In this document: in pieces, positions 3,489 through 22,328 of the stretch
How the letters are laid out: each line of letters starts with the position of its first letter
How positions within the stretch are numbered: the first letter of the stretch is position 1
The notes under the pieces: model-generated
Seen by the model: only the letters and a program-made list of their open reading frames with translations
The model's database searches: none
What the model was told of the DNA's origin: nothing
Source of the DNA: Rhizobiaceae bacterium
GTDB taxonomy: Bacteria; Pseudomonadota; Alphaproteobacteria; Rhizobiales; Rhizobiaceae
Assembly: GCA_016742175.1 (NCBI GenBank)
Contig: JACVCH010000026.1
Coordinates: 1 to 36,995, forward strand
Direction: 5' to 3'
DNA length: 36,995 bases
Translations under genes and position numbers: made by a program

Positions 3489-4901
3489 TTGCGCCTGCTG
3501 GATATCGCGCGCAGCGCCTATGTGAAGAGCCCGCCCGGCCTGCGCCGGTCGGTCGCGCCGCTGATTTCCATAATGCCGCTCTCGCTGCGCTATGGCGCGG
3601 TCTACGAGCGCTGGCGCCGCGACATCGTTCGCGCGCGCACCGATGCCGACTTTTCCACTACAGCGACGACGGCAGCCCTGCGCTCGCTGGCAAGCACTGC
3701 GATTCATGCAAGCCCTTTCCACCGTGCGCGTTTCGCAACCGCCTTCGGCGCGGATTTCGATGCGCGGCAGATGGAAGTCGAAGACCTCGCCCGCCTGCCG
3801 ATCCTGACCAAGAGCGATTTGCGCGCCGCCGGCGATGCGGCCCTCACCCGCCCCGCGAAAAGCCTCGTGCGCAATTGCACCAGCGGCTCCAACGGCGAGG
3901 AGCCGTTCGCGTTCTTCGTCGACCGCGACCGCTCGGTGCGCGAATTCGCCTTCGTCAACGACGCCTGGGCGCGCGCCGGCTATACGCGCGATGAGACGCG
4001 CTGCGTCCTCAAGGGCTTTCGCATGAAAGGCGCGGAGGATCGCCTGTTCGAATGGGAGCCGGCGCTGAACGAACTGCGCCTTTGCGTCTTCCCGATGAGC
4101 GAGGCGGACGTCGCGCTCTACATCGACCTGATCGACGCACGCCAGATCCGTTTCCTGCACGGCTATCCGTCGGCCATCGAACTCTTCTGCCGCCACATGC
4201 TGGCGCTCGGCCGCAGCTTCAAGACGCCGATCAAGGGCATCCTGCCGATCTCCGAACCGCTCTACGACCACCAGCGCGCGACGATCCGCCAAGCGCTCGG
4301 CGACGTCGCCTTCGCTCCCTTCTACGGCCTCAGCGAAAAGGCGCTCTTCGCGCGCGAAGTCGCGTACGACATCTACGAGTTCGAACCGCTCTACGGCCTC
4401 GCAGAACTCGTCGACGACGATGGCACGCCAGTCACCCAACCCGGCGCGGAAGGCCGCCTCGTCGGCACCGGCTTCATCACGCATGGCATGCCCTTCATCC
4501 GCTACGACACCGAGGACCGCGCCCGCCTCGTCGAGCCGGGCACGCGCGCCAATGGCTGGCGCATGAAGGTCACGGCCATCTCCCCGCGCCGCAAGCCCGG
4601 CTTCTTCGTCGGCAAGTCGGGCAACCGCATCGTCGCGACGAACTTCCCGCCGCAGGACCCGGCCTTCTTCCGCGGCATGAGCGAATTCCAGTTCGTCCAG
4701 TCGGAGCCCGGTGAGGCGGTGATCCGCTATGTGGCGGCGAAGGACGGCACCGTAGGAGATGCCGAACGTATCCGCACCGCGCTCGAGGCAAAGGCCGATG
4801 GCCACCTGACATTCACGCTGGAGCGCGTCGATTGCCTCGCCTGCGGCAGCCAGGGCAAGCGCGCCTTCATCGACCAGCGGCTTGATCTGGCGCGGTACTA
4901 A
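3489..4901 (+). CDS. CapK/PaaK-like AMP-binding (adenylate-forming) protein
   Basis: A 470-residue member of the phenylacetate-CoA ligase/CapK branch of the ANL superfamily. The ATP-binding loop TSGSNGEEP is at residues 131-139, and YGLSEKALF further on corresponds to the core Y-G-x-S/T-E motif. CapK-type proteins are common in capsule and exopolysaccharide clusters, where they are thought to activate an acyl group for glycan decoration, but few have been tested. The start is a TTG preceded by AGGGGG with suitable spacing; no ATG gives the full N-terminus. It probably works with the preceding FemAB/GNAT-like protein, one activating and the other transferring; this pairing is inference. A 62-bp gap separates the two genes. 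Confidence 0.85.
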   Translation: MRLLDIARSAYVKSPPGLRRSVAPLISIMPLSLRYGAVYERWRRDIVRARTDADFSTTATTAALRSLASTAIHASPFHRARFATAFGADFDARQMEVEDLARLPILTKSDLRAAGDAALTRPAKSLVRNCTSGSNGEEPFAFFVDRDRSVREFAFVNDAWARAGYTRDETRCVLKGFRMKGAEDRLFEWEPALNELRLCVFPMSEADVALYIDLIDARQIRFLHGYPSAIELFCRHMLALGRSFKTPIKGILPISEPLYDHQRATIRQALGDVAFAPFYGLSEKALFAREVAYDIYEFEPLYGLAELVDDDGTPVTQPGAEGRLVGTGFITHGMPFIRYDTEDRARLVEPGTRANGWRMKVTAISPRRKPGFFVGKSGNRIVATNFPPQDPAFFRGMSEFQFVQSEPGEAVIRYVAAKDGTVGDAERIRTALEAKADGHLTFTLERVDCLACGSQGKRAFIDQRLDLARY

Positions 4902-8731: not shown

Positions 8732-9838
8732 ATGATCCGCCCTCACCTCACACCGCTCGCCGAAACCCTGCCCGCCACCGTGCCTTTCGTCGGGCCGGAA
8801 GCGCAGGAACGGGCGCGCGGCAAGGCCTTCAAGGCGCGGATCGGGGCCAATGAGAGCGGGTTCGGGCCGTCGCCTAACGTGCAGGCCGCCATCGCGGCGG
8901 CGGCGGGCGAAATGTGGATGTATGGCGACCCGGAAAGTGCCGAATTACGCAAAAAGCTGGCTGAAAAGTACGAAGTTTCAGCCCAAAACATCGTCATTGG
9001 CGAGGGAATTGACGCGCTTTTGGGGCTGATCGTGCGACTTTGGGCCGACAAAAACGCCCCCGTCGTCACCTCGCTCGGCGCCTATCCGACCTTCAACTAC
9101 CATGTCGCGGGGTTCGGCGCGCGCCTCGTCGCCGTGCCCTACGAGGACGATCGCGAGAGCCTTTCCGCGCTGCTGGAAGCCGTGAAACGCGAGAATGCGC
9201 CGCTCGTCTATCTCGCCAATCCCGACAATCCGATGGGCACATGGTGGCCGGCGGAGGACGTCCAGCGTTTCATCGAGGCGCTGCCGGAGACGACCATGCT
9301 GGTGCTGGACGAAGCCTATGGCGAGACGGCGCCTGCGGGCACCCTGCCGCCGCTCGACGTGACGCGGCCGAACGTTTTGCGGATGCGCACCTTTTCAAAG
9401 GCTTACGGCCTTGCGGGCCTGCGCTGCGGCTATGCGATCGGCGAGGCGACGACGATCAACGCCTTCGAGAAAGTGCGCAACCATTTCGGCATGACGCGCA
9501 TGGCGCAGGTGGCCGCTGCGGCAGCGCTGGACGACGAGGATTACCTGCAAAGCGTCATCGCGCAGGTCTCTTCCTGCCGGGACAGGCTAGCGAAGATCGC
9601 GGTCGACAACGGGCTCGCATCGATTCCCTCCGCCACGAATTTCGTCGCGATCGACTGCGGCGGCGACGGCGCGTTCGCGCTTACGGTGATGCAGGCGCTG
9701 ATCGCGCGCGACGTCTTCGTGCGCAAGCCGATGGCGCCGGGGCTCGACCGCTGCATCCGCGTCTCCGTTGGACCGGCGGCCGAGATCGACATTTTCGAGC
9801 GCGAGCTACCGGCTGCGCTTGCCGAGGCGCGGGGCTGA
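8732..9838 (+). CDS. PLP-dependent aminotransferase, histidinol-phosphate aminotransferase-like
   Basis: A 368-residue fold-type I class I/II aminotransferase resembling HisC. ANESGFGPSP (39-48) is the substrate-loop region, NPDNPMGT (163-170) supplies the PLP-ring asparagine, LDEAY (192-196) the aspartate that contacts the pyridine nitrogen, and TFSKAYGLAGLRCGY the Schiff-base lysine K223. Relatives act on histidinol phosphate or on aromatic amino acids. Rhizobia often carry several HisC paralogues, and no his gene is adjacent, so the true substrate is open. The stop codon abuts the stop of the convergent small gene with no base between them. Confidence 0.85.
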   Translation: MIRPHLTPLAETLPATVPFVGPEAQERARGKAFKARIGANESGFGPSPNVQAAIAAAAGEMWMYGDPESAELRKKLAEKYEVSAQNIVIGEGIDALLGLIVRLWADKNAPVVTSLGAYPTFNYHVAGFGARLVAVPYEDDRESLSALLEAVKRENAPLVYLANPDNPMGTWWPAEDVQRFIEALPETTMLVLDEAYGETAPAGTLPPLDVTRPNVLRMRTFSKAYGLAGLRCGYAIGEATTINAFEKVRNHFGMTRMAQVAAAAALDDEDYLQSVIAQVSSCRDRLAKIAVDNGLASIPSATNFVAIDCGGDGAFALTVMQALIARDVFVRKPMAPGLDRCIRVSVGPAAEIDIFERELPAALAEARG

Positions 9839-10072
9839 TCAGCCGGCGGCGAGATCGGCGAAGAAGGCGCGGAGCCTTGTCGGCCCCTCGCCTTTCGCTT
9901 CGCTGGCGTCGATGCGGCTGACCTCCCGCGCCGCGGCCTGCTGCCGGTCGGCGTCGGCGGGGAGCCACATCAGCCAGGCGAGGAAGACCTCCTCGGGCTC
10001 CGGTTGCCGGCGCGGGACGAGTGCGGGACGCGATGATGCCGGCGTCAGGCCGAACTGGCGTGCCTGACCCAT
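9839..10072 (-). CDS. Small conserved-looking protein of unknown function downstream of gbcB
   Basis: A 77-residue acidic protein I do not recognise. Its centre reads PEPEEVFLAWLMWLP, followed by a helix-forming stretch with RQQAAAREVSRID and a C-terminal RLRAFFADLA. The ATG follows directly on the TAG stop of the GbcB-like gene, so it would be translated as the last gene of that operon. Its own stop abuts the aminotransferase stop. Tight packing and codon use like its neighbours favour a real gene. It could be an accessory or regulatory partner of the oxygenase, but nothing in the sequence proves it. Confidence 0.6.
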   Translation of the reverse strand: MGQARQFGLTPASSRPALVPRRQPEPEEVFLAWLMWLPADADRQQAAAREVSRIDASEAKGEGPTRLRAFFADLAAG

Positions 10073-11161
10073 CTACGCCTCCACCGTGACGGGGCCGAGC
10101 GGTCGCGAGCAGCAGGCGAGGATGTAACCTTCCTCGATCTCGTGATCGAGAATGCCGCCATTGTGGCTCATCTCGACCTCGCCGGCAGTCTTCATGGTCT
10201 TGCATGTGCCGCAGAGACCGAATTCGCAGGCTGCCGGGATGCGGATGCCGGCCGCGCGGGCCGTCTGGAGCACGGTCTGTCCGGGCAGGCACGGCGCCTC
10301 GACATCGGAGAGCGTAAAGCGCACCGGCTGGGCATCGGCCGGCGGTTCGGCGGCGATCTCCTCCTCGAACGGCGCCTGGATACGCTCGATCGCCGGCGCG
10401 CCGAAGCTTTCCTGGTGATAGTGCGCCATGTCGAAACCGGCCACCTCCAGCATTTCGCGCACCGCGCGCATGAACGGGTCGGGGCCACAGCAGAATATCT
10501 CGCGCTCGCGGAAATCGGGTGCGAGCAAGGGCAAGCGCACGGCGTCGATGCGGCCCATATGGCCGAACCAGCTCTCGCGGCTCGACCGCTCCTCGATCAG
10601 GAAGCCGAGCGAGAGGCCCGGCATGTGCGCGCCCAAAAGCTCGAGCTCCTTGCGAAAGATGATCTCTTCCGGCCGGCGCGCGCAGTTGACGAAGGCGACG
10701 TCGGTCTGCGGGGTGAAATCGTTCAGCCAGCGCAGCATCGACATCATCGGCGTGATGCCCGAGCCGGCGGAGATGAAGAGATATTTCGCGGCCGGATGAT
10801 TGTGCAGCGAGAAGGTGCCGGAGGGGCCGAAGGCACGGATGTGGTCGCCAGGCTTCAGATGATCGAACATCCAGCGCGTGCCGAGCGAATCCTTTTGCGC
10901 CTTGACCGTGACGGCGATGGAAAAGGGCCGCGAAGGGCTGGAGGACAGCGTGTAGGTGCGCATCAGCGGATCGGGCGCGGCGGGAAGTTCCAGCGTGATG
11001 AACTGGCCGGGCTGGTAGCGGAACCAGGTCTGACTGTCGGAGCGGAAGGTAAAGGTCTTGACGTCGGGCGCCTCGTCGACGACGCGCAGGCATTCCAGCA
11101 CCTGGAGGCGATCGTCCCAAGGGGTCATTTCGTCGAGATGTTTGTAGAGGTGGGCGGTCAT
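10073..11161 (-). CDS. gbcB: Oxygenase reductase, GbcB-like (FAD/NAD(P)H and plant-type 2Fe-2S)
   Basis: A 362-residue electron-transfer protein. The FAD-binding barrel (about 15-120) contains RTYTLSS (68-74). The NAD(P)-binding domain (about 125-245) starts with SAGSGITPM (131-139) and ends with the CCGPDPF segment. A C-terminal plant-type ferredoxin domain (about 280-362) binds 2Fe-2S through C312, C317, C320 and C350. The order FNR then ferredoxin matches GbcB, the reductase of the glycine betaine demethylating monooxygenase. It should pass electrons from NAD(P)H to the Rieske protein encoded just upstream. The GbcB assignment rests on that pairing; other two-component oxygenase reductases share the architecture. 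Confidence 0.85.
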   Translation of the reverse strand: MTAHLYKHLDEMTPWDDRLQVLECLRVVDEAPDVKTFTFRSDSQTWFRYQPGQFITLELPAAPDPLMRTYTLSSSPSRPFSIAVTVKAQKDSLGTRWMFDHLKPGDHIRAFGPSGTFSLHNHPAAKYLFISAGSGITPMMSMLRWLNDFTPQTDVAFVNCARRPEEIIFRKELELLGAHMPGLSLGFLIEERSSRESWFGHMGRIDAVRLPLLAPDFREREIFCCGPDPFMRAVREMLEVAGFDMAHYHQESFGAPAIERIQAPFEEEIAAEPPADAQPVRFTLSDVEAPCLPGQTVLQTARAAGIRIPAACEFGLCGTCKTMKTAGEVEMSHNGGILDHEIEEGYILACCSRPLGPVTVEA

Positions 11162-11193
11162 TTCTGCTCACCTCGAAGGTGGAGCCCTGTCGC

Positions 11194-11240
11194 GCCCCCC
11201 TCTGTCCTGCCGGACATCTCCCCCGCGAGGGGGGAGATCA
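11194..11240 (+). repeat. Palindromic repeat, family A, copy 1
   Basis: A 47-base unit beginning GCCCCCCTCTG and ending GGGGGGAGATCA, with an internal hairpin (ATCTCCCCC / GGGGGAGAT). It faces a second copy at 11261-11307 in inverted orientation, and two more copies occur inside glyS. The pair lies between the GbcA-like and GbcB-like genes. Confidence 0.85.
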
Positions 11241-11260
11241 CGCGGTGTCGATGACGAGAA

Positions 11261-11307
11261 TGATCTCCCCCCTTGCGGGGGAGATGGGCGGCAGCCCAGA
11301 GGGGGGC
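11261..11307 (-). repeat. Palindromic repeat, family A, copy 2 (inverted)
   Basis: The reverse complement of this 47-base stretch matches copy 1 with only a few differences in the middle. Together the two copies form a long imperfect inverted repeat with a 20-base spacer inside the 169-bp gap between the oxygenase and reductase genes. On the mRNA it would fold strongly and could reduce reductase expression relative to the oxygenase; that effect is inference. Confidence 0.85.
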
Positions 11308-11330
11308 AACTTCGAGCATAATCGTTTCCC

Positions 11331-12578
11331 TCAAGCCACCGACCGCAGAGCCGGCTTGGCATCGCCCGTCAAGCGTTCCTCGGCAAACCTGCAGTACCAA
11401 TCCACGAACTGCATGACGCCGCCCTCGTGCTCCTCCGAATACGGACCCGGTTGGTACGCAGGCGATGCAATGCCGAAGGCATTTTCCTCGACGATGCGGC
11501 GGTCCTGGTCGTTGGTTTCGGTCCAGACATGGATGAGTTCGGCAAGGTCGTAGTCGACGCCCTCGACGGCGTCCTTGTGGACGAGCCATTTGGTCGTGAC
11601 CGCAGTCTCCGTTGCGCTGATCGGCAGGACGCGGAAGGTGACGGCGTGGTCGCCGAGGACGTGATTCCAGGTCGTCGGATAGTGAAAGAGGAGGAGCGAG
11701 CCGATGCGGTCGGCCGTGACGGTGTCGGAGAGGTTCTTTTTCACCGCGCGCTTGCCGGACATCGTGTAGCTGACGGCATCGCGCAGGAGCGGCACGCGGG
11801 TGACGCGGTGCTGGCCGGTTGCGGCGATCTCGAACCGGGACGGCAGGCCCGCTGCCTCGCACTTTTGCCAATGCGCGACGATCTCGGGATCGCGTTCGGC
11901 AGCCTGGACGCCGGTGACGGTGGGAGCTTCGGGGAAGGTCTTGCACAGTTCGGGGTGGTTGCCGGCGCAGTGATAGCACTCGCGGTTGTTTTCCCAGACG
12001 AGCTTCCAGTTGCCCTTTTCGATGATGGTCGATTCGAAGGCGATCTTCGTTTCGGTCAGCCGGTGCGGCGCGAGATAGGGTTCGACCTGCGCGCGGACGG
12101 GCGCGAAGTCGGCGGGCGCGTCGGCAAGGCAGATGAAGAGATATCCGGCGACGCTTTCGCAGGCGACCGGCTTCAGGCCGAATTGCGAAGCGTCGAACCC
12201 GGCGCCCATCTGGCGGGCAAAGACGAGGCGGCCGTCGAGATCGTAGGTCCACTGATGGTAGGGGCAGACGAGCTTGGCCGCCGTTCCTTTCGCTGCCGTG
12301 CAGACGCGCGAGCCGCGATGGCGGCAGGTGTTGTGGAAGGCCCGGATCGCGCCTTTCGCGTCGCGCACGAGGACGACCGGATAGTCGCCGACCTGCACGG
12401 TGAAATAGCTGCCGGGTTTCGGCAGTTCGCAATCATGGCCGATGAAGAGCCAGTCGCGATACCAGATCAGATGGAGATCGAGCCGGTAAAACTCGGGGTC
12501 GGTGTAGAACGCCTGTTCGAGGCTGTAGCCGGGTTTGCGGCGCTGGAGCCGGTCCAGCATTTCGTTGCGCGCATCCAT
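11331..12578 (-). CDS. gbcA: Rieske monooxygenase, GbcA-like (quaternary-amine demethylase)
   Basis: A 415-residue alpha subunit of the Rieske ring-hydroxylating family. The Rieske 2Fe-2S site is C85-x-H87 (TCRHRG) and C105-PY-H108 (CPYHQW). The catalytic domain begins with NWKLVWENNRECYHCAGNHPEL, in which H203 and H208 ligate the mononuclear iron. This wording is typical of GbcA and stachydrine demethylase rather than of aromatic dioxygenases. GbcA with GbcB oxidatively removes a methyl group from glycine betaine, giving dimethylglycine and formaldehyde. The start at 12578 is preferred because AGGACAGGA lies just upstream; an ATG at 12596 would add six residues but has no ribosome-binding site. 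A cobalamin riboswitch precedes the gene, so expression should fall when B12 is plentiful. The exact substrate is unproven. Confidence 0.85.
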   Translation of the reverse strand: MDARNEMLDRLQRRKPGYSLEQAFYTDPEFYRLDLHLIWYRDWLFIGHDCELPKPGSYFTVQVGDYPVVLVRDAKGAIRAFHNTCRHRGSRVCTAAKGTAAKLVCPYHQWTYDLDGRLVFARQMGAGFDASQFGLKPVACESVAGYLFICLADAPADFAPVRAQVEPYLAPHRLTETKIAFESTIIEKGNWKLVWENNRECYHCAGNHPELCKTFPEAPTVTGVQAAERDPEIVAHWQKCEAAGLPSRFEIAATGQHRVTRVPLLRDAVSYTMSGKRAVKKNLSDTVTADRIGSLLLFHYPTTWNHVLGDHAVTFRVLPISATETAVTTKWLVHKDAVEGVDYDLAELIHVWTETNDQDRRIVEENAFGIASPAYQPGPYSEEHEGGVMQFVDWYCRFAEERLTGDAKPALRSVA

Positions 12579-12583
12579 GTCCT

Positions 12584-12604
12584 GTCCTGCCTTCATGCAA
12601 GGAC
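12584..12604 (-). promoter_or_regulatory. Hairpin that would hide the gbcA ribosome-binding site
   Basis: On the minus strand GTCCT (12604-12600) pairs with AGGAC (12588-12584), and GC (12598-12597) with GC (12590-12589), leaving one bulged T and a six-base loop. The AGGA that serves the ATG at 12578 is inside the stem. This is what an RBS-occluding expression platform of a Gram-negative B12 riboswitch would look like. The stem is short, so chance is possible. Confidence 0.4.
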
Positions 12605-12700
12605 TGAACTGGTGGAGATTTCGAAGGAGAAAGGCGCAACGGAACTATCCGCACGCGCATCCGCCCCTTGACCGCCCACCGCGATCAGTCGGTTTTCACG

Positions 12701-12891
12701 AATTCAGGCTGGTTTCCGGGCTCAGAAGCCGGTCTTCGGATCGCTCCGTCGACCTGTCGCAACACCTTCCCAGGCAAATGCCCAGTGGCTCCCGTTGCGA
12801 CGTCACTCCACTTACCGTTGCGGGGGCAGCGCCGGCTTTTCACCGGCTTCCCAATTCTCCGCCCCCATCATCCGGAGGCGGCACCTGAACT
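12701..12891 (-). promoter_or_regulatory. Cobalamin (B12) riboswitch aptamer
   Basis: Read on the minus strand, this stretch has the ordered conserved parts of the cobalamin aptamer. The closing stem is TTCAGG (12889-12884) with CCTGAA (12708-12703). Next comes CAGGTGCC, then GGGAAGCCGGTGAAAAGCCGG, then the almost invariant GCTGCCCCCGCAAC, a GCCACTGGGCA...TGCCTGGGAAGG arm, and finally GAGCCCGGAAACCAGCCTGAA, equivalent to the 3' B12 box. It lies after purD and before the GbcA-like gene, both on the same strand, about 125 bases before the start codon. The 381-bp gap (12597-12977) holds no gene; the riboswitch and its expression platform explain most of it. Binding of cobalamin is expected to turn the downstream genes off. 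Confidence 0.93.
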
Positions 12892-12977
12892 GGCTGCATT
12901 GAAGCATTCGCGCGGAGGCTTTGGAAGCTGGAATGCGACATGCGATGAGCATGGGGCGACGCGACGAAAAATCGACG

Positions 12978-14249
12978 TCAGCGTGTCTCCCGCTCAACCT
13001 CGCGCCAGCCGATGTCGCGGCGGCAGAAGCCTTCCGGCCAGTCGATCCGGTCGATGGCGGCATAGGCCTTTTCGCGTGCTTCGCGAACGGTCTTGGCCAT
13101 CGCGGTGACGTTGAGGACGCGGCCGCCATTGGCGACGATGTCGTCGCCTTTCCTGGCGGTGCCGGCGTGGAACATCTCGACTTCGCCGCCGACCTTGTCG
13201 AGGCCGCGAATGACGCTGCCCTTCTTCGGCGTCGCCGGGTAGCCTTCGGCCGCGAGCACGACGGTGAGCGCGACCTCGTCGCGCCAGCGGGCCGACATGT
13301 GGGCCAACTGGCCGTCGGCGGCGGCGTTGAGCAGGATCAGCAAATCTTCCTTCAGCCGCATCATCAGCACCTGGCATTCGGGATCGCCGAAGCGGGTGTT
13401 GTATTCGATGAGCTTCGGGCCGTCCTTCGTCAGCATCAGGCCGGCATAGAGAACGCCCGAGAACGGCGCGCCCATCTCGGCCATGCCCTTCATGGTCGGC
13501 TCGATGATCGTCCGCATCACCTCGTCGATGATGGCGGGCGTGAGGATTGGCGCGGGCGAATAGGCGCCCATGCCGCCGGTGTTCGGTCCGGTGTCGCCAT
13601 CGCCGACGCGCTTGTGGTCCTGCGCGGTGCCGAAGGGCAGCGCGGTCTTGCCGTCGCAGAGGCAAAAGAACGAGGCCTCCTCGCCTTCGAGGAATTCCTC
13701 GACGACGACTTCCGCACCCGCCTCCCCGAACCCGCCCTCAAAGCAATCGTCGATAGCGGCCAGCGCCTCGTCGAGCGTCATTGCCACCGTGACGCCCTTG
13801 CCGGCGGCGAGGCCATCGGCCTTGATGACGATGGGCGCGCCGAGCTGGCGGATATAGGCTTTCGCCTTCGGGGCGTTGTTGAAGCGCTGGTAGGCGGCGG
13901 TGGGGATGTCGTAGCGGGCGCAAAGGTCCTTGGTGAAGCCCTTCGAGCCTTCGAGACGGGCGGCGGCGGCCGAGGGGCCGAAGACGCGGATGTCGTGGCT
14001 GGCGAGCACGTCGGCGAGGCCCGCGACAAGCGGCGCTTCCGGGCCGACGACGACGAGGTCGATCGCCATCAGCTTGCAGAAGGTGGCGATGCTCTCGTGG
14101 TCGTCGAGGTCGAGCGTCACGCATTCGGCATGTTCGGCGATACCGGGATTGCCGGGCGCGGCATAAAGCTTGGTCAGCATCGGGGAGGCGGCGATCTTCC
14201 AGGCCAGCGCGTGCTCGCGTCCGCCAGCACCGATGAGAAGAATGTTCAT
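12978..14249 (-). CDS. purD: Phosphoribosylamine-glycine ligase (GARS)
   Basis: A 423-residue protein of normal PurD length, catalysing the ATP-dependent joining of 5-phosphoribosylamine and glycine in purine synthesis. The N-terminal domain starts [18 protein letters not shown] with the GARS glycine-rich loop. The ATP-grasp core has [33 protein letters not shown] and [15 protein letters not shown]. The signature RFGDPECQ is present at about residue 290. The C-terminal domain contains [22 protein letters not shown] precedes the ATG by about six bases. It is the cytoplasmic second step of the pathway and appears to be a single gene; the B12 riboswitch starts about 90 bases after its stop and serves the next gene. 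Confidence 0.96.
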
Positions 14250-19799: not shown

Positions 19800-22328
19800 T
19801 CAGCCTGCGATTTTCGAAAAATCCGCGACGGCGCCCGTGGCCGCGCGGATGCGGGCGAGCAGCGCCAGGCGATTGGCGCGCACGGCCTGATCCTCGTCAT
19901 TGACCAGCACCGCCTCGAAGAAGGCGTCGACCGGGGCGCGCAGCACCGACAACGCCAGCATGGCGGCGGAAAAGTCCTGCGTTTGAATCGCTTGCGTCGC
20001 GTTTTTCTCGGCGTGGTTCACCGCATCGAAGAGCGCGGTTTCCTCCGGCTGGCGGAAGAGCGAAGGATCGACGGATGGCGCGATCGCGGTGCCCTTCTTT
20101 TCCTCGGCGGCGAGGATGTTCGCGGCGCGCTTGGTGCCGGCGAGGAGGTTCCTGCCGTCTTCGGAATCGAGGAAGATGCCGAGAGCTGCGACGCGGGAGA
20201 CGATCAAAAGCAAGTCGTCGTTGGTCGATGACGGCGTGATCTCCCCCCCTGCGGGGGAGATGCCCGGCAGGGCAGAGGGGGGCAACGTCGAGCGCCCACC
20301 TTCAACGCGCGGAGAGGCCTGCGGGACAGCGCCCCCCTCTGTCGGCTGCGCCGACATCTCCCCCGCAAGGGGGGAGATTTCGCGCGAACCCGTCGACAAC
20401 ACCGCGTCGATGAGATCGTGCCGCGCGCCCTTGTCGCGCATGTAGACTTTCAGACGGTCGTGGAAGAAGGAGAGGAGGTCGACGACCTCCTTCGTCCAGC
20501 GCCCACCTGCATACCTTGTCATGACAGTCATTCGGGCAATCGAGCCACCAAGTTTCCGTGCGTTCTCAATTATGTCATCGCCAATCCGAGCATGGTGAGT
20601 TTCGCATAGGGTTAGCAGCCCCAGCCGCACCCCATTCTCCACCACGATCCGGATCACGCCCAGCGCCGCCCTGCGCAGCGCATAGGGGTCCTTCGAGCCT
20701 GTCGGCTTTTCGTCGATGGCCCAGAAGCCGACCAGCGTGTCGAGCTTGTCGGCCAGGGCCACGGCGATGGCGATGGGGTCGGTGGGGACGGTGTCGGAGG
20801 GGCCTTGCGGTTTGTAGTGATCCTCAAGAGCGGCGGCGACTGACGCGTCTTCGCCTTGGAGAGCTGCGTATTTGCGGCCCATGGCGCCCTGGAGTTCGGG
20901 GAATTCGCCGACGATCTCGGTCGTCAGATCGGCCTTGGCGAGAACGGCGGCGCGGGCGGCGAGGTCGGGATCGGCGCCGACGATCGGGGCGAGTTCACGC
21001 GCGAGCCTTGCGATACGCGCGACGCGTTCGCCTTGGGTGCCGAGCTTGGCGTGGAAGGTGACGCCGAGATGATCGAGCCGGGCCATGCGCTGGTCGAGCG
21101 GCTTTGTGAGGTCGAGGCCGAACTTTTCGGCCGATGCGCCGAGTTGCTTCAGGTCCGGTAGGTCGGCCTGGTCCGTCTTCCAGAAGTGGACGGCGTCGGA
21201 GAGGCGCGCGCGCACGACCTTGCCGTTGCCGTGGACGATCTCCCTGCCGCCATCGGTGGCTTCGATGTTGGCGGTGAGGAGGAAACGGTTGGCGAGGCGA
21301 TACCCCTCACCCGTCTCGGCGCTACGCGCCGATCCACCCTCTCCCACAAGGGGCGAGGGGAAGGCTGCTGCGCCGCCGCGCCCTTCCTTCTCCCCTTGTG
21401 GGAGAAGGTGGCCACGCGAAGCGTGGTCGGATGAGGGGTTCGCCAGCGGACGCACCACGAAGCATTTCTGGTTGGCGCGGATGGTGAGGCGGATGACTTC
21501 CGGGGGGATCGCGAGATAGTCCTGCTCGAATTCGCCCATCAGCACGACCGGCCATTCGACGAGGCCGGAGACTTCCTCCAGAAGCCCCTCGTCCTCGACG
21601 AGTTCCAGCCCGGAGGCGAAGGCGAGGTTCTTGGCGTCGTCGAGGATGATGCGCTTGCGGCGCTCGGCGTCGAGGACGACCTTGGCGGCTTCGAGCTTGG
21701 CGACGTAGTCATCGAAGCGGCGCACATGAATAGCGTCCGGCGCGTGGAAGCGGTGGCCGTATGTGACGTTGCCCGAGCGGATGCCGTCGATCTCGAAATC
21801 GACGACGACCGGCTCCTCGGTTTCGGGGCCGAAGGTGCAGACGATGGATTGCAGCGGGCGGACCCAGCGCATCGAGCCGGGCCTGGCCGACGCCGCGCCC
21901 CAGCGCATCGATTTCGGCCAGGGAAAGGCGCGCACGATTGCGGGCACGATCTCGGCGATGATCTCCTCGGCGGCGCGGCCGGGCTTGACCAGATGGGCGA
22001 CGTAGAACGCGCCCTTCTTCGGATCAGTGTGGGTGTGAGCCTGGGCGACATCGGCGAGGCCGGCCTTGCGCAGGAAGCCCTGGATCGCCTGCTCGGGCGC
22101 GGAAACGGACGGACCCTTGATCTCCTCGCGCACGTCCTTCGACCTTGCAGTGAGGCCGCGGATGTCGAGCGTCAGGCGGCGCGGCGTCCAGTATTCGGTC
22201 GCAGCCTCGTAGGTCAGGCCGGCCTCGACCAGACCGTCCGTGACCATCTTCTTCAAATCGCCCGCCGCCTTGCGCTGCATGCGGGCGGGGATTTCCTCAG
22301 AGCGGAGTTCAAGAAGAAGGTCAGGCAT
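19800..22328 (-). CDS. glyS: Glycine-tRNA ligase beta subunit with two in-frame repeat insertions
   Basis: An 842-residue beta subunit of the heterotetrameric glycyl-tRNA synthetase. The family is usually about 690-750 residues. [18 protein letters not shown] is the classical start; [28 protein letters not shown] and [16 protein letters not shown] are core motifs, and an anticodon-binding part ends the protein. The extra length comes from two repeat-derived inserts. Residues about 297-343 ([12 protein letters not shown] and [15 protein letters not shown]) interrupt [12 protein letters not shown]...[13 protein letters not shown]. Residues about 645-700 ([11 protein letters not shown] and [12 protein letters not shown]) interrupt the segment between DLIDAVL and [10 protein letters not shown]. 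Frame is kept throughout, so the gene is probably functional. Its alpha partner is encoded at 25586-26536. Confidence 0.95.
20237..20283 (-). repeat. Palindromic repeat, family A, inside glyS
   Basis: A 47-base unit matching the family A copy at 11261-11307 in sequence and orientation. It lies inside the glyS reading frame and encodes [17 protein letters not shown] on the minus strand. A second copy in the opposite orientation follows at 20331. Confidence 0.88.
20331..20377 (+). repeat. Palindromic repeat, family A, inside glyS (opposite orientation)
   Basis: A 47-base unit matching the copy at 11194-11240. Within glyS it encodes [19 protein letters not shown] on the minus strand. With the copy at 20237 it forms an imperfect inverted repeat with a 47-base spacer; the pair is head-to-head here but tail-to-tail at 11194-11307. 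Confidence 0.88.
21302..21438. repeat. Palindromic repeat, family B, inside glyS
   Basis: Two related arms face each other. The left one (about 21302-21361) runs CCCCTCACCCGTCTCGG to CCCACAAGGGGCGAGGGG. The right one (about 21386-21438) runs CCTTCTCCCCTTGTGGGAG to GGTCGGATGAGGGG. Each has its own small hairpin, GGCGCTACGCGCC and CCACGCGAAGCGTGG. The sequence differs from family A. It lies in frame in glyS and adds about 45 residues. Confidence 0.85.

Follow-up and report, generated by a model that had tools for sequence, protein, structure and literature searches.

The locus analyzed here raises the question of why a cobalamin riboswitch should stand in front of the genes of a Rieske-type oxygenase and its reductase. 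The window, by which we mean the whole stretch of DNA that was analyzed, comprises 36,995 nucleotides of a Rhizobiaceae bacterium (contig JACVCH010000026.1), and the features on which the analysis was focused are the following.

10073-11161, minus strand: frdX, FAD/NAD-binding reductase with a C-terminal 2Fe-2S ferredoxin domain, 362 aa (PF00970, PF00175, PF00111)
11162-11330, no strand: intergenic gap of 169 bp with two CTCCCCC..GGGGGAG palindromes
11331-12596, minus strand: ardX, Rieske-type oxygenase subunit, 421 aa (PF00355, 68.0 bits; PF00848, 110.6 bits; both above the cut-off)
12670-12686, minus strand: conserved hairpin GAUCGC-GGUGG-GCGGUC, directly 3' of the aptamer
12690-12903, minus strand: cobalamin riboswitch aptamer RF00174 (117.3 bits, E 5e-29, model positions 1-189)

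The presence of a B12 aptamer in front of the operon, already suggested in the original prediction, was confirmed with the Rfam covariance model: the full aptamer was recovered at 117.3 bits, compared with a gathering score of 31.5 bits, and no further Rfam match reached its gathering score anywhere in the window. The range predicted for the unit, 10073-12891, covered the operon and the aptamer but fell 12 bases short of the 5' end of the latter. With our own covariance model R1, which has the window sequence as one of its 28 members, the aptamer was located at 12704-12888 (138.3 bits). The hairpin that follows it is probably P13/L13, names that we presume to apply here, and its loop is presumably able to pair with the aptamer loop L5. 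In 29 distinct sequences picked by the loop motif, 96.0% of the cells of the six-pair stem were paired, four of the six pairs were changed on both sides, and the covariation score was 0.424 as compared with a shuffled mean of 0.234 (none of 500 shuffles was as high), while slid versions of the stem were 22-49% paired. A sequestration of the Shine-Dalgarno sequence by an upstream element was also considered and dropped, as the best helix that the Shine-Dalgarno region forms with the leader upstream of it exceeded the shuffles (p <= 0.05, 100 shuffles each) in 4 of the 35 leaders analyzed out of 84. No intrinsic terminator was found on the aptamer strand in the region 9700-13100, where the single candidate (shuffles, mean 2.1) lies on the opposite strand.

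The first gene that the aptamer can control is ardX, and frdX is the next. We take this pair to be probably the ardX-frdX ring-oxygenase/ferredoxin pair of rhizobia that the 2003 comparative survey of B12 elements by Rodionov reportedly described, with no function assigned. ArdX contains both the Rieske and the ring-hydroxylating catalytic domain of a Rieske non-haem iron oxygenase, and its translation probably starts at the ATG beginning at 12578, which is conserved in relatives. The gap between the two genes has an estimated median of 27 bp in 66 relatives, and the palindromic repeat found within it in the window recurs in each of the five further regions of the genome that were examined.

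The best NCBIfam matches of the two proteins were the GbcA and GbcB models, and the genes had been described as GbcA/GbcB-type. Judged by sequence, ArdX and FrdX belong to the GbcAB/Stc2 superfamily, and the description stands at this superfamily level only: ArdX scored 534 bits with NF058607 (GbcA, cut-off 670) and FrdX 373.7 bits with NF058606 (GbcB, cut-off 500), both below the equivalog level, and the GbcA cut-off was likewise missed by eight further loci tested from the order. ArdX was therefore not filed as GbcA. Among solved structures, the chains 3vca and 3n0q share 59% and 60% identity, respectively, with ArdX over the aligned parts; we take 3vca/4qup to be the stachydrine demethylase Stc2.

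The genome of the same bacterium was then considered for B12-dependent enzymes that could act on similar substrates. Five MTTB-family (MttB) genes are present, and these provide a B12-dependent counterpart of ArdX-FrdX in the same genome, with a putative substrate. One of them, on contig C2, adjoins genes for a B12-binding protein (matched best by the MtgC models of NCBIfam, below the cut-off), a DUF1638 protein, an mtgD-like pterin-binding methyltransferase (PRK07535, 396.8 bits, above the cut-off of 259) and a RACo/RamA-like activase, whose Pfam RACo domains scored above and whose NCBIfam models scored below their cut-offs. Another MttB gene adjoins a gene for a DAO+GCV_T flavoprotein, which has the domain make-up of dimethylglycine/sarcosine dehydrogenases. 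The contig C2 gene set resembles the MtgBCD set of Ruegeria, which, in the available part of the study concerned, mtgC and mtgD mutants together with proteomics tied to the demethylation of glycine betaine (PMC12478193). A metE gene was not found in the source genome, in which MetH would therefore continue to depend on B12. Next to ardX-frdX, the window contains purD and an aminotransferase gene. We know of no link between either of these and B12.

The aptamer is not unique to this genome, which would have spoken against the original prediction, since, of 80 close homologues of ardX in named genomes, 60 have it upstream, as compared with none of 63 distant ones. The 60 loci comprise 59 recognized by conserved boxes and one recognized with Rfam (L058, a weak aptamer of 57.9 bits); our own covariance model, built partly from 18 of these loci, finds all 60, and the remaining 20 were negative with Rfam. 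Outside the order, four of eight close homologues have the aptamer, and no mttB or mtgC match was found in seven 20-kb neighbourhoods of homologues there. The identical genes L084, L087, L092 and L124 were left out of the counts, as were L037, which stands unlabelled in the tree, and G446, a match with several stops; loci at <=51% identity were excluded from a second tree.

The distribution of the aptamer follows closely that of MttB. In the 79 of the 80 named genomes that were covered by the MttB search, the two agree in 77 cases (both present in 58, both absent in 19, aptamer alone in one, L058, and MttB alone in one; Fisher p 4e-16, relatedness ignored). In a sample of the order, MttB was found in all 25 genomes with an aptamer at ardX, as compared with 125 of 397 overall; the named set and this sample overlap, and at least three aptamer-bearing genes are identical. 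Against this agreement, 12 of 124 labelled tree rows are discordant. Three of them are L058 and, within the ArdX clade, L082 and L097; the other nine belong to the sister clade containing Stc2 or lie close to it, and all nine have MttB and lack the aptamer. Two of the nine (L138 and L148) are second copies, and in each of these genomes the other copy has the aptamer. A general loss of B12 regulation was rejected as an explanation, as each of the 20 named genomes without an ardX aptamer has 2-7 cobalamin riboswitches elsewhere (58 of the 79 genomes were searched, all 20 included).

It is important to mention that close relatives may share both features by descent, and that a few lineages, such as Agrobacterium and the R. 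etli group, could have lost both for unrelated reasons. The tree has few changes, 10 for the aptamer and 8 for MttB, and in 13 of the 20 named loci without the aptamer, ardX has no adjacent frdX either, as this explanation would allow. When relatedness was taken into account by an independent-pairs test, six pairs were usable, with a mean of 3.4 concordant, 0.0 opposite and 2.6 showing no difference (median p 0.25); a sign test with six such pairs cannot reach 0.05, which leaves the tree-corrected test underpowered. No opposite pair, however, occurred in any of 200 draws, separate cases are seen in Sphingomonas, Xaviernesmea and G131 as well as in the groups of Agrobacterium and R. etli, and the physical linkage of the genes, described below, is independent support. 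We regard shared ancestry as an improbable explanation of the agreement.

The original prediction proposed that, at low B12, methylated amines are channelled into an oxidative route that does not need B12, and named MetH as a possible partner. The comparative evidence favours the first part, and the partner is most likely MtgB/MttB, because the occurrence of MttB matches that of the aptamer in 77 of 79 genomes, whereas 52 of the 54 genomes tested for MetH have it, regardless of the aptamer. MetE was found in 12 of these 54, again in aptamer-bearing and aptamer-less genomes, and all 12 metE genes have a cobalamin aptamer just upstream. As both proteins occur with and without the ardX aptamer, neither explains where it was kept, and both were rejected as its partner.

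The same counts bear on the idea that ardX-frdX serves the methionine or one-carbon balance upon failure of MetH, by relief of a methyl-folate trap or with formaldehyde as a C1 source, and does not back up a betaine methyltransferase. A homocysteine-methyltransferase-like gene, under the cut-offs of its best models, does follow frdX in L036 and L039, and metE with a riboswitch is nearby in L022, L033 and L205; the retention of the aptamer is nevertheless explained by MttB and not by MetH or MetE, and we hold this role to be distinctly unlikely.

In a minority of the relatives, the operon is physically linked to nrdAB, metE or mtg genes. In L022 and L033, nrdAB with a riboswitch is followed by riboswitch-ardX-frdX and then by metE with its own riboswitch; the nrdAB, ardX-frdX and metE systems are also together around the second ardX copy of Labrys (L205), riboswitch-nrdAB adjoins ardX-frdX in L039, and in L232 the pair is divergent from a riboswitch-controlled class I RNR. 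Among the 80 named loci, an nrdA-type gene lies within the available flanks of five and metE within those of two. In L216 and L219 (with L218), riboswitch-ardX-frdX is divergent from mtgC-DUF1638-mtgD-ramA, and in L220 a DAO+GCV_T-type gene and mttB adjoin ardX-frdX. As a separate observation, a gene of L120 (14866-15732) named MetF2-like by eye had no Pfam match at 1e-8 and no NCBIfam match at 1e-30; its counterparts in L216 and L219 were named by similarity only.

The nameable neighbours are mostly B12-independent isozymes or betaine methyltransferase genes, which gives little support to an earlier suggestion that the product might be a cobalamin precursor or belong to corrinoid metabolism. 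According to that suggestion, ArdX-FrdX would make or modify a corrinoid or lower-ligand precursor, and the riboswitch would be ordinary feedback on B12 synthesis; cob genes are often under B12 riboswitches, and near the operon in L004 and L040 a second aptamer precedes genes that were judged btuB-like by eye. The characterised relatives in the family are known as demethylases of quaternary amines (for GbcAB, the available part of PMC12478193), no corrin-ring gene was identified among the neighbours of the operon that could be named, and the presence of the aptamer follows that of MttB, whereas other cobalamin riboswitches are retained in the 20 genomes that lack it. A corrinoid role is very improbable in our judgement.

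A more serious possibility, although still an unlikely one, is that the same logic applies to another substrate, ArdX-FrdX backing up a different MttB paralogue that acts on proline betaine (stachydrine), carnitine, gamma-butyrobetaine or another N-methyl compound. The five MttB paralogues, the identity of ArdX to 3vca and 3n0q and its score below the GbcA cut-off are all consistent with this, but the neighbours in L220 (the DAO+GCV_T-type gene and mttB) and in L216 and L219 (mtgC) fit glycine betaine better, an argument that would be weakened in turn if several MttB paralogues shared MtgC and MtgD, as may be the case.

We consider it likely that ardX-frdX encodes a B12-repressed, O2-dependent isozyme that backs up a B12-dependent MtgB/MttB quaternary-amine demethylase. 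ArdX-FrdX would be a Rieske N-demethylase that requires O2 and NAD(P)H, acting most likely on glycine betaine and possibly on proline betaine or another betaine, and would serve as the B12-free isozyme of the corrinoid-dependent MtgB/MttB-MtgC-MtgD system of the same genome. When cobalamin is plentiful, it would bind the leader aptamer, the P13 hairpin would dock and ardX-frdX expression would be switched off, and betaine would be demethylated by MtgBCD with formation of methyl-tetrahydrofolate. When cobalamin is scarce, the leader would open and ArdX-FrdX would take over, releasing the methyl group as formaldehyde, which could spare the remaining cobalamin for MetH and other essential users. 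Repression by B12 is proposed by analogy with studied cobalamin riboswitches, such as that of the Caulobacter metE leader, whose reporter was shut off by B12 in the portion of the study available (PMC6538847).

More tentatively, three or more riboswitches may form a linked "cobalamin-to-oxygen" programme in Alphaproteobacteria, sometimes in one gene island, in which NrdJ would give way to NrdAB, MetH to MetE and MtgBCD to ArdX-FrdX together. Downstream of frdX, some lineages also have genes for a second Rieske enzyme and for a homocysteine methyltransferase, which may add a B12-free use of betaine methyls.

Full-text searches of the open-licence literature found no paper naming both ardX and frdX, none joining gbcA with a cobalamin riboswitch, none linking a B12 riboswitch, a Rieske enzyme and glycine betaine, and none linking a cobalamin riboswitch with a ring-hydroxylating enzyme in rhizobia; among the titles listed by broader searches, none concerned this link. 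The analysis offers a specific function for a riboswitch-linked gene pair that was seemingly left unexplained, and it joins two lines treated apart in the literature covered, the B12-dependent betaine demethylation of aerobes and the older Rieske-type GbcAB route. If the proposal is true, B12 supply would decide whether betaine methyls become methyl-tetrahydrofolate or formaldehyde in rhizobia and their relatives, with consequences for how plant-associated and marine bacteria use carbon and for the B12 economy of communities.

When compared with known systems, ardX-frdX shares with the GbcAB glycine betaine monooxygenase of Pseudomonas and Chromohalobacter the two-gene arrangement of Rieske oxygenase and reductase, although both of its products score under the equivalog cut-offs. 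Stc2 belongs to the same superfamily, and its clade is sister to ArdX, whereas L140 and L145, the two loci closest to Stc2 in the tree, are without an aptamer. MtgBCD of Ruegeria presumably carries out the same net step, the removal of a methyl group from glycine betaine, and similar genes adjoin ardX-frdX in some relatives; it works, however, by corrinoid methyl transfer to tetrahydrofolate, whereas ArdX-FrdX is presumed to demethylate oxidatively. In the available part of the Ruegeria study, GbcAB is treated as a separate pathway of other bacteria, and the sole mention of a riboswitch is a reference on the glycine riboswitch (PMC12478193). The principle of a B12-independent isozyme under a cobalamin riboswitch is known, and the ardX-frdX enzyme pair would be a new addition to it. 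As with riboswitch-controlled metE and class I nrd, the aptamer precedes a B12-independent enzyme in a genome that also has a B12-dependent one, but here a catabolic enzyme, the quaternary-amine demethylase, would be replaced instead of one that makes methionine or deoxynucleotides, and its substitute would use O2, so that the set of riboswitch-controlled B12-independent backup enzymes would be extended from biosynthesis to catabolism.

The cobalamin aptamer that the original prediction placed upstream of ardX was recovered with the Rfam covariance model, and no further Rfam match at gathering score was found anywhere in the 36,995-base window. The features of the region are listed below.

12690-12903, minus strand: cobalamin riboswitch aptamer (Rfam RF00174; 117.3 bits, E 5e-29, model positions 1-189)
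Directly 3' of the aptamer, minus strand: conserved hairpin with a near-constant loop and a varying stem
11331-12596, minus strand: ardX, Rieske oxygenase (PF00355 and PF00848)
10073-11161, minus strand: frdX, reductase with FAD, NAD and 2Fe-2S domains

The purD gene lies upstream on the same strand and was not counted within the riboswitch-ardX-frdX unit. The 3' hairpin, which is probably the P13/L13 element and would dock with loop L5, was analyzed in 29 distinct sequences chosen by the loop motif: 96.0% of the stem cells are paired, both sides have changed in four of six pairs, the covariation score was matched by none of 500 shuffles, and pairing falls to 22-49% when the partner is slid. 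No intrinsic terminator was seen on the riboswitch strand, and the Shine-Dalgarno region pairs better than shuffles in only 4 of 35 leaders. In Caulobacter, also an alphaproteobacterium, B12 shuts off a reporter under the metE leader (PMC6538847). Between ardX and frdX (11162-11330), and again at 20241-20376, there is an often paired palindromic repeat, CTCCCCC..GGGGGAG, which recurs in all five other stretches of this genome that were examined (L118, L119, L120, L121 and L122) and looks like an intergenic REP-type element. It widens the ardX-frdX gap to 169 bp, the estimated median over 66 relatives being 27 bp.

The best NCBIfam models for ArdX and FrdX are the two glycine betaine monooxygenase subunits, with both scores under the curated cut-offs (534 versus 670 for GbcA and 373.7 versus 500 for GbcB); the earlier designation "GbcA/GbcB-type" thus stands at the superfamily level and not at that of the curated subunits. 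Eight further superfamily members of the same order, those tested, also score under the GbcA cut-off. The solved relatives of ArdX are 3vca/4qup (59% identical), presumably the stachydrine demethylase Stc2, and 3n0q (60% identical). Judged by sequence, ArdX-FrdX is firmly placed in the GbcAB/Stc2 superfamily. Its substrate is probably glycine betaine, with proline betaine or another substrate of the corrinoid-dependent MttB family as a live rival.

In order to see how far the arrangement extends, named bacterial and archaeal genomes were scanned by pattern, giving at least 596 matches, of which the best 80 loci were retained. Far from being unique to this genome, the aptamer lies upstream of the homologue at 60 of these best 80 loci (59 identified by conserved boxes and L058 by Rfam). 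A covariance model that we assembled from 28 aptamers, 18 of them from these 80 loci, recovered all 60; at the remaining 20, no aptamer was found with Rfam. Within the order, 89 of 397 genomes have a homologue at E <= 1e-90. The aptamer was present at 20 of 26 loci with at least 64% identity, at 6 of 23 with 53-63% (L098, L102 and L133-L136), and at none of the 63 loci scanned with 51% or less. Outside the order, it was found at four of eight close homologues. In a tree of 127 proteins, the aptamer-bearing genes are spread over two sister clades, the ArdX clade with 102 rows and a second one with 21 rows that includes Stc2 as well. The riboswitch-ardX feature is therefore common across Alphaproteobacteria.

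At 13 of the 20 aptamer-less named loci (L061, L062, L066, L068, L069, L070, L071, L073, L074, L076, L077, L079 and L080), frdX was not found adjoining ardX, so ardX may have acquired a different partner or function there; those loci whose titles give a species are taken to be Rhizobium of the etli/leguminosarum kind. In Sinorhizobium meliloti, a cobalamin riboswitch is listed between SMc00983 and SMc00982 (PMC2573895).

A 2025 study of Ruegeria, an aerobic marine bacterium, reports mutants that tie MtgC (corrinoid) and MtgD (pterin) to glycine betaine demethylation, and proteomes in which MttB-family MtgB proteins, RamA and DUF1638 are raised (PMC12478193). The genome of the window (4.30 Mb in 34 contigs, 96.1% complete, the window being the entire contig C6) has five MTTB genes. 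One is grouped with genes for DUF1638, a RACo/RamA-like activase, a pterin-binding methyltransferase that scores over its cut-off, and a B12-binding protein whose best NCBIfam models are those of MtgC, though under cut-off; a second adjoins a DAO+GCV_T flavoprotein gene. MetH is present, and MetE was not found in this genome. Just one other cobalamin riboswitch was found (contig C4 47545-47749; L118 11041-11216); downstream of it are genes whose sequences, judged by eye, resemble those of a btuB receptor and ABC transporters, and one of the five MttB genes is about 7 kb away.

The MTTB search covered 79 of the 80 named genomes (from the best 80 of at least 596 matches): 58 have the aptamer together with MttB, 19 have neither, and two have one of them alone, MttB in L082 and a weak aptamer in L058. 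The L058 aptamer (4642-4833, 57.9 bits), which lacks the usual 3' hairpin and stands in a genome without an MttB match, looks like a riboswitch in decay. In the order sample, which overlaps the named set, MttB was found in 25 of 25 genomes with an aptamer at the ardX homologue versus 125 of 397 overall. Among 124 labelled tree rows, 81 have both, 31 neither, 11 MttB only and one the aptamer only. Of the 11 rows with MttB only, nine belong to the sister clade or its vicinity, among them the two loci nearest to Stc2 and two second copies. The fewest changes on the tree are 10 for the aptamer and 8 for MttB. An independent-pairs test on the main tree gave six pairs (mean 3.4 agreeing, 0 opposing and 2.6 without difference; median p 0.25), and a smaller first tree five (mean 2.8 agreeing). 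The pattern is thus one-sided, yet, with only six pairs, not significant once relatedness is corrected for. Two controls help it: each of the 20 aptamer-less named genomes keeps two to seven other cobalamin riboswitches, and among 54 genome handles, with or without the aptamer, MetH occurs in 52 and MetE in 12 (the handles G023 and G223 appear to stand for the same genome). Every metE gene found (12/12) has an aptamer just upstream.

Gene order in relatives was also compared. Loci L022 (Mesorhizobium sp. J18) and L033 carry, in this order, riboswitch-nrdA-nrdB, riboswitch-ardX-frdX and metE, which is convergent and has a separate riboswitch; L039 has the first two units, and L205 (Labrys sp. 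WJW, second ardX copy) has riboswitch-metE, riboswitch-nrdA-nrdB and riboswitch-ardX-frdX in succession. nrdA genes are close to ardX in L036 and L031, and L232, which belongs to another order, has riboswitch-ardX and a riboswitch-class I ribonucleotide reductase unit in divergent orientation. The unit that diverges from riboswitch-ardX-frdX in L216, as well as in L219 with L218, is mtgC-DUF1638-mtgD-ramA, its MtgC and MtgD being 82-88% identical to the proteins of the window's genome; in L220 the operon faces a DAO+GCV_T-type gene and mttB. Where linked, therefore, ardX-frdX accompanies B12-independent isozymes or B12-dependent betaine machinery. Such linkage is a minority (nrdA-type genes at 5 and metE at 2 of the 80 named loci, within the flanks examined); neither kind of gene adjoins ardX-frdX in the window, and no mttB or mtgC was seen in seven neighbourhoods from other orders.

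Several neighbouring genes were also recorded. A homocysteine-methyltransferase-like gene lies downstream of frdX in L036 (7655-8710) and, together with another Rieske gene that is less closely related and scores 286 bits with the GbcA model, in L039 (7504-9969); a relative of that Rieske gene adjoins riboswitch-metE in L206 (4957-6144). L206, L207, L208, L209 and L212 each have, after riboswitch-metE, another riboswitch with an additional ribonucleotide-reductase-like gene downstream; in L207, the one checked, this gene is class Ib NrdE.

By analogy, the simplest account would be that ardX-frdX is to mtgB as metE is to metH. ArdX-FrdX would be a B12-free backup, kept silent by the riboswitch as long as cobalamin lasts; its expression would let iron and oxygen take over a high-flux catabolic task otherwise served by corrinoid, and the cobalamin left over would go to MetH. 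With MetE not found in this genome, cobalamin would still be required for MetH, and sparing it is therefore the likely benefit. A 2003 survey may have named ardX-frdX; our search of open-licence papers found the link to MtgBCD stated in none of them. The principle of a B12-free isozyme under a cobalamin riboswitch is already known from metE, and the apparent novelty lies in the ArdX-FrdX pair of enzymes and in how it matches MtgBCD.
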